A stretch of DNA of 64,000 nucleotides from Fibrobacteraceae bacterium (GTDB lineage: Bacteria; Fibrobacterota; Fibrobacteria; Fibrobacterales; Fibrobacteraceae), in contig JAGBSH010000017.1 in the NCBI GenBank assembly GCA_017631885.1, positions 89,044-153,043 on the forward strand. The letters are read 5' to 3'. Under the pieces are notes generated by a model. That model was not told the DNA's origin. It saw nothing but the letters and a program-made list of their open reading frames with translations, and made no database searches. Made by a program: the position numbers and the translations under genes. This document shows, in pieces, positions 1,680-63,153 of the stretch (its first letter is position 1; every line of letters starts with the position of its first letter).

Positions 1680-2027
1680 ATGTCCCAGAATATTGAAACC
1701 ATTCATCAAGAAAATAAGAAAGCTGAACAACCAGCTTTCCGTACAGGCGATACCGTCACTGTGAATATTAAGGTTATTGAAGGTACGAAAGAACGTATCC
1801 AGCCATTCAAGGGCGTTATCATTCAACATAAAAATACAGGCATTTCCGAAACTCTTACTGTTCGCAAAATGTCTGGTTCTGTAGCCGTGGAACGCATTTT
1901 CCCAATCCATAGCCCAAGAATTGATTCTATCGTAATCGATCGCCCGGGTAAGGTTCGTCAGGCTCGCATTTATTATATGCGCAACCTCCGCGGAAAAGCA
2001 GCACGTATTCTTGAACGTCAAGATTAA
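1680..2027 (+). CDS. rplS: 50S ribosomal protein L19
   Basis: L19 lies at the 30S-50S interface. The 115-aa product shows the family hallmarks: FRTGDTVTVNIKVIEG, the RIQPFKGVII segment, SGSVAVERIFPIHSPRI, and a C-terminal RQARIYYMRNLRGKAARI. The codons are mostly preferred ones, fitting high expression. It is the fourth gene of the rpsP operon. A GC-rich hairpin with a T tract lies 28 bases after its stop (2056-2090), but inside the coding start of the next gene. Confidence 0.97.
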   Translation: MSQNIETIHQENKKAEQPAFRTGDTVTVNIKVIEGTKERIQPFKGVIIQHKNTGISETLTVRKMSGSVAVERIFPIHSPRIDSIVIDRPGKVRQARIYYMRNLRGKAARILERQD

Positions 2028-2044
2028 TTGTTGGAGTCTTGAGA

Positions 2045-2953
2045 ATGAAACAAATCCCGCCGTTACGTGAAAACGTGCCGGCGGGTTTTTCTGTTTTTAA
2101 AGCAAAAGAAAATCCAGAAACTTTCCTGTATTTAGAAAAGGGCGAACTAGCAGCACTAGTCGTAGCTAATGGCAAAGAATCAGAACTATTTAAAGTCCAT
2201 CCTGGGGAAGTAGTCGGGGTTCAAACTTTATTAGAAAAACAACCTCTCCCCTATACGCTTAAAGCAACAGAAGATAGTTCCTTTTTAAAAATAGACGAAG
2301 AATGTCTTGCAAGTGCATTAAAAAATATTCCAGTTTGGTTACTTGCATCTATTCGCAATATATCTCAACAAATTAAATTACTCTTAAAATCAGACCATTC
2401 AATTAGCCCTAATGGAACAGCAAAAGCATTAGCCGCTTTTCTCTTGCAAAAAACAGAAATCCTTTTAGCCGAAAATAAATCTGCTTTATTTAACGATTAT
2501 CGCCTTTTATTAAAAGAATGTTCTTGGATAACTCGTATTCCATTAAAAATTCTCAAAGAAGAATTAATCTCTTTTGAAAGGCGTCGTTTAGTTTTAATTC
2601 ATGATAAAGAATTAGGCATTCAAAACCCAAAACTTTTACTCATCTTAATAGAATACCTTTCCTCTTTAGAATCGGGCAAAGCATATCCACCATTTCATTT
2701 TAACTTGGTTGAAAAAAGAGCCGTTCATTGCCTATCAAGAGTACCAGAAGGAACATCTCTAACAGCACCTGAATGGTTGACTTGCTTACAGAACAATGAT
2801 AAATTCGCTACAGTCGCCGAAGTTATTTTGCTTGAAAAACTTGGTCTTTTAATTAAAAATGACTTAGACCTTTTAAGCATTTCCGAAGACAACATCCATA
2901 AATTTTTGCTTTGCTTTGAATTTGAAACTGAAATCAAAGGAGCGCTTTTATGA
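2045..2953 (+). CDS. Cyclic-nucleotide-binding-like protein, first of a tandem pair
   Basis: A 302-aa cytoplasmic protein whose N-terminal 110 residues resemble the Crp/Fnr cyclic-nucleotide-binding beta-roll (VPAGFSVFKAKENPETFLYL, then a G-E-L turn and HPGEVVGVQTLL). The phosphate-binding cassette is not recognisable: the usual Gly-Glu plus Arg pair is missing where PLPYTLKA stands, so cAMP binding is doubtful. The rest is helical with no DNA-binding motif that I can identify. The start chosen is the ATG at 2045 with GGAG at 2033-2036; an upstream TTG at 2039 is less well spaced. A terminator hairpin overlaps codons 5-15. It overlaps the next gene by ATGA at 2950, so the two are translationally coupled. 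Function unknown. Confidence 0.75.
   Translation: MKQIPPLRENVPAGFSVFKAKENPETFLYLEKGELAALVVANGKESELFKVHPGEVVGVQTLLEKQPLPYTLKATEDSSFLKIDEECLASALKNIPVWLLASIRNISQQIKLLLKSDHSISPNGTAKALAAFLLQKTEILLAENKSALFNDYRLLLKECSWITRIPLKILKEELISFERRRLVLIHDKELGIQNPKLLLILIEYLSSLESGKAYPPFHFNLVEKRAVHCLSRVPEGTSLTAPEWLTCLQNNDKFATVAEVILLEKLGLLIKNDLDLLSISEDNIHKFLLCFEFETEIKGALL
2056..2090 (+). terminator. Intrinsic terminator inside the start of the downstream CDS
   Basis: CCCGCCG (2056-2062) pairs with CGGCGGG (2079-2085). An inner ACGT/ACGT helix (2065-2068 with 2073-2076) is closed by a GAAA loop, and TTTTT follows at 2086-2090. It lies about 30 bases after the rplS stop, where an operon terminator is expected. It also encodes residues 5-15 of the next protein, so it probably attenuates read-through into that gene. 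Confidence 0.8.
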
Positions 2954-3873
2954 AGATATTATCCGGCGATTTCTTGTTTATGGAAGGAGAAAAAAACACC
3001 GCAATATACATTGTCCAATCTGGTTCTTTTAGTGCTATACAAAAAAGAGGAACTCTTGTTAAAATAGTAGAAACATTTGGGCCCGGTTCTATCATAGGGC
3101 AACTTCCTTCTGAAGAATCTTATCTTTACCCTTATTCTGTAAAAGCAGAAGAAGATTCTATTGTTGAAAAAATCACCGATAAAGAAATTATTACGACACT
3201 TTCAAAAACCCCTATTTGGTTTTCTAAATTCGTTGGATTTTTACAAAAACGCCATTTACTACTGCTTCAAAAAAATCAAAAAAAACAGGCTATTTTAGCA
3301 TTACCAGCACTACTTTCTGTACTTGATCATTTTTTCAGAACCACTAATTTAACGAAAATAGATTTTAATGATATAATAACAGCGCTTGAACCATTAACTT
3401 CAATAAAAGCAGAAATTATTTCAAACCTTTGTAAAGCCCTTTCTGCAATTGGATTTTTTAAATACAACAATTCTTCTATAGAACTTACGCATCCAGCGGT
3501 GCCTTCTTTGCTGCATATGGTATTTACTGAAAAAATTCTTGAAGACAAAATTCCATCTCTCATTTTGTCCGCAACCGACCAAATACTTTTAGAAACATTT
3601 GCCAAAGCGGCTCAACAAAATGGAAGACTCCTAGAAAATCGTTTCATTGAAATTTCCGGGTTAGCTTTTTCACAAGAAGCGCCTGTTTATCTAAAAAAAG
3701 ACCGAAAAATTTTCAATTCTTTAATAGAAAAGAAAATCATCCGTTTAGAAAGTGCAAATTCAGGACTTTTTAATGAAGATAAAATCTATGGGGATTTAGA
3801 ACACATTTCCGATCTTTTAGAATTAAATAGGATATATCCTCTTCTAGACCATGAACTTGCGAAACACCTTTGA
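2950..3873 (+). CDS. Cyclic-nucleotide-binding-like protein, second of a tandem pair
   Basis: A 307-aa protein paralogous in layout to its upstream neighbour. It opens directly with a beta-roll (GDFLFMEGEKNTAIYIVQSG, then TFGPGSIIGQLPSEE) of the cNMP-binding fold, followed by about 190 mostly helical residues. The cassette Glu and Arg that grip cyclic-nucleotide phosphate in CRP are not present in the GPGSIIGQLPSEESYLYPYS segment. No helix-turn-helix is evident. The ATG overlaps the upstream stop (ATGA), implying a stoichiometric pair. yajC follows 40 bases later. A ligand-free scaffold or a sensor for another ligand are both possible; the function is unknown. Confidence 0.75.
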   Translation: MKILSGDFLFMEGEKNTAIYIVQSGSFSAIQKRGTLVKIVETFGPGSIIGQLPSEESYLYPYSVKAEEDSIVEKITDKEIITTLSKTPIWFSKFVGFLQKRHLLLLQKNQKKQAILALPALLSVLDHFFRTTNLTKIDFNDIITALEPLTSIKAEIISNLCKALSAIGFFKYNNSSIELTHPAVPSLLHMVFTEKILEDKIPSLILSATDQILLETFAKAAQQNGRLLENRFIEISGLAFSQEAPVYLKKDRKIFNSLIEKKIIRLESANSGLFNEDKIYGDLEHISDLLELNRIYPLLDHELAKHL

Positions 3874-61564: not shown

Positions 61565-63153
61565 TAGCGGCCTCCTAGAGTCATAACTTTTCCCCAGCCC
61601 ACATGCCCATGATTATCTTTCACGCGCACATAATAAATTCCCATAGTAACGGCACGCCCCATATCATCTCGACCATCCCATAAATCTTCAGCAGCATTAG
61701 TGCTGCGCCCAGCAGATGCTGGGCGCAAAGCATCTTTTACAATTGTACGCACTTTACGCATATCATAGCTAAAAATTTCAATGGTTACTTTTGATTCTTT
61801 AGAAAGATTATACGCGATAAGCGATTCGCCATCGGCTGCAATCACAGAAGGCACCATTCTAATAGAAGAAAGATTTTTACCAACAGCCGCTTGATTTAAA
61901 ACAGGTTGCCAAGTTTTTCCAGAGTCTGCAGAAACGGAAATTCCATTCCCGTAAGTGGTCACAGCAAGTCCTGTTCCTCCATTAGGCAAAAACCAATCAT
62001 TAACAGAAAGGATAATGGTATTTCTATCAACAACTCCTGCTTCAAAACCATAAAGCCATTGATTTTCTTCTGCTTCCCAAGGAATCGCGCCTAGCGAATC
62101 TAATTTCAAAAGTCCACTTTCTGCGCCCCCAACCGTTCGCACTGCTACAAAAACTTGCTTACCAACAAAAGCAACATCGCTTACACTATAATCTGTACCA
62201 TCATAAACACCTTTTATCTTTTTTCCTGTCGTATCTCTGAAAACAACTTCTGAAAAATTTTTCCCATCCAAAGAACGCCACAATTTATTTTCTAAATGGC
62301 CACTTTTATATTCCGATGTTTCTGCAATGATTTGTGTTGGAGTTCCGCCTAACCAAACTCCGGTCACACGAGATTTTTCTAAACCTGAAATAAGTTTCAA
62401 TTTAGCCGATTGAGCATCTTCTTGAACCCAAAGACCAGTTGATGTCGCTAACCAAAGTACATTTTTTTCTGGCTCTAAAGCTAATCCCAAAATGGATGGC
62501 GTATTTGAAAATTTTAATTCCATTCCATACGTCAATGTATCTAATCGTTGTTCTTTTTTATTTAACACCAATGTTTTTTCTTGAACATTTCCAAAACCTT
62601 TTGACACGTCATAGCGTAAAAGTCCAGAAGCCCCCATTGCACTCCATAAGACATTAGATAAAGAATCATACGCAAATGCAGACAACGCATTATCCATTAA
62701 AGAAAACGATGTGTCCAGATAAGAGATTCTCGGCAATTCTAATGGAATGTAAGATAAACCACCTTCTTCTACACCACGCATAGAAATAAAACCTGCTGGT
62801 TTCCGGAATAAGCCTGTTGAATCCAATTCATACATAGGAAGAACGCTTCCTAATTTCCCAGCTTTCACAAAAGGAACTCTACGAAGCTCCGCTTTCGTAT
62901 CACTCAATATCCCATCATGAACAGCAGTATATTCTACATCATTTTCAAAAATGGAAAATTCACTTGAAAGGATTCGTAAAGGTGCCCCGGTCCCAAATTC
63001 TAAAAGAGAGAACCCTCCATTTGCATCACCACGAGAAAAAACTAAAACTTTACCTTTTCCAAAAGAGGTTGCTGCAAAAGAATAATTGCTAACTAATAAT
63101 TCTCCTGCGGCAAAAAGATAACTTACACAAAAAAACAACACTATTCGAAACAT
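61564..63153 (-). CDS. Exported beta-propeller-like protein with FlgD-type Ig tail
   Basis: A 529-aa exported protein with a short signal peptide (MFRIVLFFCVSYLFAAG). The central ~400 residues look like propeller repeats (LSNVLWSAMGASGLLRYDVS, EPEKNVLWLATSTGLWVQED, DYSVSDVAFVGKQVFVAVRT, AVTTYGNGISVSADSGKTWQ, the last an Asp-box type SADSGKTW). The C-terminal ~85 residues match the FlgD Ig-like fold (YNLSKESKVTIEIFSYDMRK, WDGRDDMGRAVTMGIYYVRV), a common C-terminal cargo domain that resembles type IX sorting signals. It directly precedes the PorV-like gene, which suggests cargo and transporter. AGAGGT precedes the ATG at 63153. Confidence 0.8.
   Translation of the reverse strand: MFRIVLFFCVSYLFAAGELLVSNYSFAATSFGKGKVLVFSRGDANGGFSLLEFGTGAPLRILSSEFSIFENDVEYTAVHDGILSDTKAELRRVPFVKAGKLGSVLPMYELDSTGLFRKPAGFISMRGVEEGGLSYIPLELPRISYLDTSFSLMDNALSAFAYDSLSNVLWSAMGASGLLRYDVSKGFGNVQEKTLVLNKKEQRLDTLTYGMELKFSNTPSILGLALEPEKNVLWLATSTGLWVQEDAQSAKLKLISGLEKSRVTGVWLGGTPTQIIAETSEYKSGHLENKLWRSLDGKNFSEVVFRDTTGKKIKGVYDGTDYSVSDVAFVGKQVFVAVRTVGGAESGLLKLDSLGAIPWEAEENQWLYGFEAGVVDRNTIILSVNDWFLPNGGTGLAVTTYGNGISVSADSGKTWQPVLNQAAVGKNLSSIRMVPSVIAADGESLIAYNLSKESKVTIEIFSYDMRKVRTIVKDALRPASAGRSTNAAEDLWDGRDDMGRAVTMGIYYVRVKDNHGHVGWGKVMTLGGR

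Follow-up and report, generated by a model that had tools for sequence, protein, structure and literature searches.

A probable ribosomal-protein operon terminator within the first codons of a CRP-like gene in Fibrobacteraceae

Can a ribosomal-protein operon have its terminator within the opening codons of the gene that follows, and, if so, what would this mean for the expression of that gene? Terminators predicted in coding regions are usually dismissed as noise or as being suppressed by ribosomes. The question is raised by the window, which is the whole 64,000-nucleotide stretch of Fibrobacteraceae DNA analysed here, in which the gene order is rpsP-rimM-trmD-rplS, a 302-codon cNMP-binding gene, a second cNMP-binding gene, yajC and def. 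The rplS stop codon is at 2027 and the first cNMP-binding gene starts 17 nt later, with a terminator-like element embedded in its first codons. The features under discussion, all located on the forward strand, are the following:

1680..2027 (+): rplS, encoding ribosomal protein L19 (Pfam Ribosomal_L19, E 2e-43), the last gene ahead of the putative terminator.
2033..2036 (+): GGAG, a Shine-Dalgarno-like motif 8 nt before the ATG at 2045, identified from the sequence.
2040..2100 (+): a weak A/U outer stem, an extension on either flank of the hairpin in the minimum-energy RNA fold of 2028-2100.
2045..2953 (+): the cNMP-binding, CRP-like gene (c1), carrying the putative terminator within codons 4-15 (Pfam PF00027 at residues 9-93, E 1.6e-12; AlphaFold pLDDT 89.5; Foldseek matches to CRP/FNR structures).
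2054..2089 (+): the 12-codon block IPPLRENVPAGF, ungapped in all 94 family members.
2056..2085 (+): the predicted terminator hairpin, with a 7-bp GC stem, an upper ACGT/ACGT stem and a GAAA loop (RNA fold, synonymous shuffle, covariation).
2086..2090 (+): the U tract TTTTT, made up of the third base of Gly14, the TTT codon of Phe15 and the next base, identified from the sequence.
2950..3873 (+): a second, diverged cNMP-binding paralogue in the same gene run (Pfam PF00027, E 2.2e-9), overlapping the first by 4 nt.

The hairpin, which reads CCCGCCG-TT-ACGT-GAAA-ACGT-GC-CGGCGGG, folds with -20.6 kcal/mol; read in frame, it opens on the third base of codon 4 (Ile) and closes on the second base of codon 14 (Gly), the TTTTT tract following directly 3' of the stem as in intrinsic terminators. 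The GC-rich structure is more stable than expected, since the 43-nt stretch containing it folds with -21.7 kcal/mol (z -4.5) and none of 200 dinucleotide shuffles was as good. Pairings similar to those of its outer stem are found in relatives (CAACAA..TTGTTG and CAAGC..GCTTG). When the 271-kb contig was scanned in full, no other sense-strand hairpin followed by a T tract within any open reading frame was as stable. A terminator scanner missed it because its rule admits loops of 3-8 nt only and no internal mismatch, and annotation tools that bar terminators from coding sequence, or accept short loops only, will likewise miss this element. A search against Rfam returned nothing above the gathering score. 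The preliminary description had reported this hairpin and T tract at the expected end of the rpsP operon, and the sequence is exactly as it described, with a terminator-like element following rpsP-rimM-trmD-rplS; its assignment of residues 5-15 to the element is correct to within one codon, the hairpin spanning codons 4-14 and the T tract reaching past Phe15.

The protein encoded by the host gene carries a cNMP-binding domain, and in its AlphaFold model the first strand is formed by residues 7-11, which are encoded by the hairpin, and is followed by a PAGF turn. The earlier proposal that the hairpin-encoded residues fit the first strand of the beta-roll thus agrees with both the Pfam match and the model. 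As to a possible C-terminal winged helix for DNA binding, the model has helix-helix-beta-hairpin segments and matches to CRP extend over about 200 residues; no Pfam HTH match was obtained. The best fold match (Foldseek) is the CRP-like factor Bd2879 (PDB 9sfa), with 13% identity and a low global TM-score. The product is comparable to CRP/FNR regulators such as Bd2879 in having a cNMP-binding beta-roll, with putative ligand and DNA binding. The second cNMP-like frame beside the first also has matches in many family genomes.

Considering that the cNMP fold has a PAG-F motif which reads as GGCGGGTTTT, the hairpin could be a coincidence in which the other arm matches by chance, and the residues Pro-Ala-Gly-Phe do favour GGCGGGTTT on the 3' side. 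Synonymous recoding was performed on 54 distinct versions of the block, each at the codon usage of its own gene, and in 54/54 the observed stability was matched by at most 1.6% of recodings (all p<0.02), and by less than 1% in 48, with a median z of -4.2. For the window hairpin, synonymous shuffling of its 14 codons gave -2.6 +/- 2.0 kcal/mol versus the observed -20.6, a value reached by 0/1000 recodings. The hairpin is not forced by the protein sequence. In 16 diverse genomes the block was ranked against the other windows of rplS plus the gene; it took rank 1-4 of about 195 windows in 14 of these, and ranks 8 and 11 in the other two.

The codons themselves are frozen. For the 13-codon block in Fibrobacter, same-codon conservation is 0.85 vs 0.51 (rank 1 of 281 windows in the gene), and the Phe codon is TTT, the Ala codon GCG and the first Pro codon CCG in 77/77 sequences each, the loop codons being variable. 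Elsewhere in the same genes TTT accounts for 245 of 899 Phe codons (27%; TTC 654), and GCG for 310 of 1457 Ala codons, GCC being preferred. A chance origin from the protein sequence is ruled out by the synonymous shuffles together with the covariation described below, and we consider coincidence hardly tenable. The same contig shows what a chance case looks like: its scan gave a single comparable hairpin on the sense strand at the start of a gene, rsmD, where a strong hairpin with a T run lies in the first codons, 2 nt after the upstream gene (L145, 4511-4549, minus strand). This hairpin is not conserved in 27 other genomes and is specific to this one; start-embedded terminators as a general habit of the genome were rejected, as rsmD alone was recovered.

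The hairpin after rplS is, by comparison, family-wide. Searches covered 111 Fibrobacteraceae genomes, of which 107 yielded rplS, and the downstream sequence was read in 105 of these; the cNMP-binding gene is next after rplS in 94 of them, and the hairpin occurs at the identical codon register in 94/94, within an ungapped 12-codon pattern I-P-P-x4-V-x-A-G-F or a variant thereof. At least nine genera keep the embedded hairpin, among them genus g2, the named close relatives of which are Fibrobacter succinogenes and Fibrobacter sp.; these counts do not represent independent events, as one genus supplies 77 of the 92 distinct gene sequences of full length. Neither the cNMP-binding gene nor the hairpin was found after rplS in the 11 genomes of genus g5 (L099-L109), in which rplS is more divergent and the neighbouring genes are different; in those of them that were tested separately the gene was again absent.

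In a 54-row alignment of the block, 90.7% of cells pair. The C5-G30 pair is replaced by A-U in two lineages; genus g10 has U-A for C8-G27, and in the upper stem, too, both partners of pairs have changed. Covariation scored 0.181, a value which 0/500 shuffles reached, and sliding the register always brought the score down to at most 0.09. The result points to a selected RNA structure. Relatedness inflates covariation counts; we argue that the covariation is nevertheless real, given the slid-register control and its spread over different genera. On this comparative evidence, the element is best described as family-wide and under selection at two levels, namely the protein and the RNA hairpin. 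The double duty of one sequence postulated in the preliminary description is accordingly backed by synonymous constraint, covariation and conservation, and the comparison which it had proposed, of the hairpin and the protein N-terminus in related genomes, found both kept in all 94 genomes that have the gene.

The same alignment bears on the nature of the selected structure. A long palindrome inside the gene of a CRP/FNR-like product might be a DNA site bound by that product for autoregulation, yet relatives change the letters and keep the pairing, which one expects of an RNA but not of an operator recognised by its sequence, and the T tract marks one strand only; we regard such an operator as very improbable. 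Covariation and synonymous constraint prove only that a structure is selected, so that an RNA other than a terminator would also be compatible with them, for instance a hairpin which protects a 3' end, is processed by RNase, or tunes translation of the second gene. The U tracts are imperfect in some lineages, being interrupted as in TTCTCTTG and CTCTTTGT, and the hairpin of L028 is weak (-10.9 kcal/mol), both of which count against a terminator. In favour of one, the lineages with Ser or Leu in place of Phe (g9 and part of g10) have an outer stem that extends the hairpin to a second, later U tract. Against a non-terminator function stand the conservation of the U tract as well (the invariant Phe TTT codon) and the presence of terminator-like elements at the equivalent outgroup site, and we judge it improbable.

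We consider it likely, with good support from the sequence evidence, that rpsP-rimM-trmD-rplS has its intrinsic terminator, which in practice would act as an attenuator, in this hairpin and U tract, the bases of which also encode the first beta-strand of the protein that follows. The Fibrobacteraceae would thereby hold their operon terminator within codons 4-15 of a gene for a CRP-like regulator. RNA polymerase would stop at 2086-2092 in most rounds, and only the minority of transcripts that read through would yield the regulator, whose level would be low compared with that of L19. Each terminated transcript would be a non-stop message for a short open reading frame, as has been described for termination within the start of a gene (PMC4824070), so that initiation on it should be limited or rescued by tmRNA. 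Both tmRNA and Rho are present in the genome; Rho could terminate the operon elsewhere, which counts against the reading of the element as an intrinsic terminator. The distance from the rplS stop codon to the hairpin is 25-93 nt across all genomes. For E. coli, interference of a stop-codon ribosome with a terminator has been found to cease at separations of more than about 27 nt (PMC4824070), and the minimum gap of 25 nt would by analogy be near this published limit.

Whether the element is translated depends on the position of the start codon. The reading frame is open from the start in 94/94 genomes and the hairpin is always downstream of it, at a distance of 11 nt in the window and from 11 to >40 nt between genera. 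In the Fibrobacter stretch ahead of the hairpin the residues SRQQ are kept and the Arg codon varies (CGA 36, CGG 12, CGT 12, CGC 4). Because of this synonymous variation upstream, and because the hairpin encodes predicted strand 1, we argue that translation begins before the hairpin. A start codon downstream of the hairpin, which the preliminary description had named as incompatible with its reading, is ruled out on the same grounds.

In Fibrobacter, another predicted hairpin often encloses the start codon in its loop (median z -1.6, with weak covariation). Examples at L004:1451-1510 and other Fibrobacter loci include TTCCCG-ATGAA-CGGGAA and CGAGG-AACATGA-CCTCG, with the Shine-Dalgarno region in outer pairing and arms that differ between species. 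Such a start-codon hairpin might reduce unproductive starts on messages that have been terminated, but support for it is modest, and the genus of the window gives no clear sign of it (z about 0 to -1.6). A possible antiterminator pairing of a GGCGG Shine-Dalgarno sequence with the 5' arm was seen by eye only in some Fibrobacter and g10 genomes.

Given translation from 2045, a ribosome could cover or melt the 5' arm and relieve termination, much as in pyrBI attenuation, except that the translated gene would itself be the one affected. The geometry is suggestive, as the AUG of the window is close enough to the hairpin for an initiating ribosome to overlap the lower 5' arm, the start precedes the hairpin in every genome with the gene, and a start codon in a predicted loop, as in Fibrobacter, could make initiation a control point. 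The variable start-to-hairpin distance is, however, unlike a precise ribosome footprint, and in an E. coli operon with a terminator 30 bp after the AUG, use of that AUG lowered efficiency by only about 10%, a small effect explained by ribosomes not catching RNA polymerase within the first ~100 bp (PMC4824070). Based on these E. coli data, strong licensing by the gene's own translation appears unlikely unless a pause site couples both processes, as in pyrBI. A family-wide switch is doubtful too, in which the first codons of the regulator would be a conditional terminator and the arrival of a ribosome, set by the start-codon hairpin (Fibrobacter) or by coupling to rplS translation, would decide transcription of the gene; if true, a CRP-like regulator would be tied to ribosomal-protein synthesis without a leader peptide. 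Under the terminator explanation, translation of the regulator would affect termination only modestly.

As to the origin of the overlap, an ordinary intergenic hairpin with a U tract often follows rplS in other families of the phylum, and outgroup loci with an intergenic terminator shortly after rplS are L111, L112, L113, L121, L123, L124 and L127-L129. In genome G056 (L127), this terminator precedes a homologous cNMP gene whose start is 194 nt from rplS, whereas in G051 (L122) rplS is followed by a cNMP gene and no terminator was found. As many outgroups carry a terminator in intergenic sequence, the presence of one at this position is probably ancestral. The embedded arrangement looks derived, the outgroups mostly having an ordinary intergenic one, with gene start and terminator apparently fused in the ancestor of those Fibrobacteraceae that have it, an order of events which we infer.

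The element resembles the intrinsic terminators and intercistronic attenuators of ribosomal-protein operons in its GC-rich stem, its U tract, its position at the end of a transcription unit and the weaker expression expected of the downstream gene. It differs from ordinary attenuators of this kind in its place within the part of the downstream gene that is translated first, where selection at both levels holds it family-wide. In common with E. coli pyrBI, the terminator is located in a translated reading frame and its efficiency could depend on the proximity of a ribosome; unlike pyrBI, there is no separate leader peptide with its own stop, as the frame runs into a 302-aa protein whose gene would itself be the regulated one. 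Near-identical geometry is found in construct W48 (PMC4824070), in which the tR2 terminator lies 30 bp after the AUG, with an upstream gene, a short gap, a start codon and a terminator in the first codons; W48 is artificial, whereas the Fibrobacteraceae arrangement is natural and conserved. No paper on this locus was found in the open-access literature searched, which is not proof of absence.

The locus offers a clean natural case for how a strong operon terminates inside the coding sequence of the next gene, for the fate of non-stop messages and for translational tuning, since codon choice, covariation and the protein motif agree at a preserved terminator. The motif Pro-Ala-Gly-Phe would show how a protein sequence can be pre-adapted as half a terminator. 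The operon seems to contain a second, intergenic attenuator at 351-387, where a 15-bp hairpin with a T run lies between rpsP and rimM and ends 3 nt before the rimM ATG (391). A very stable hairpin (-23.1 kcal/mol) with a T run is also present at 61701-61732 of the window, antisense within an open reading frame.
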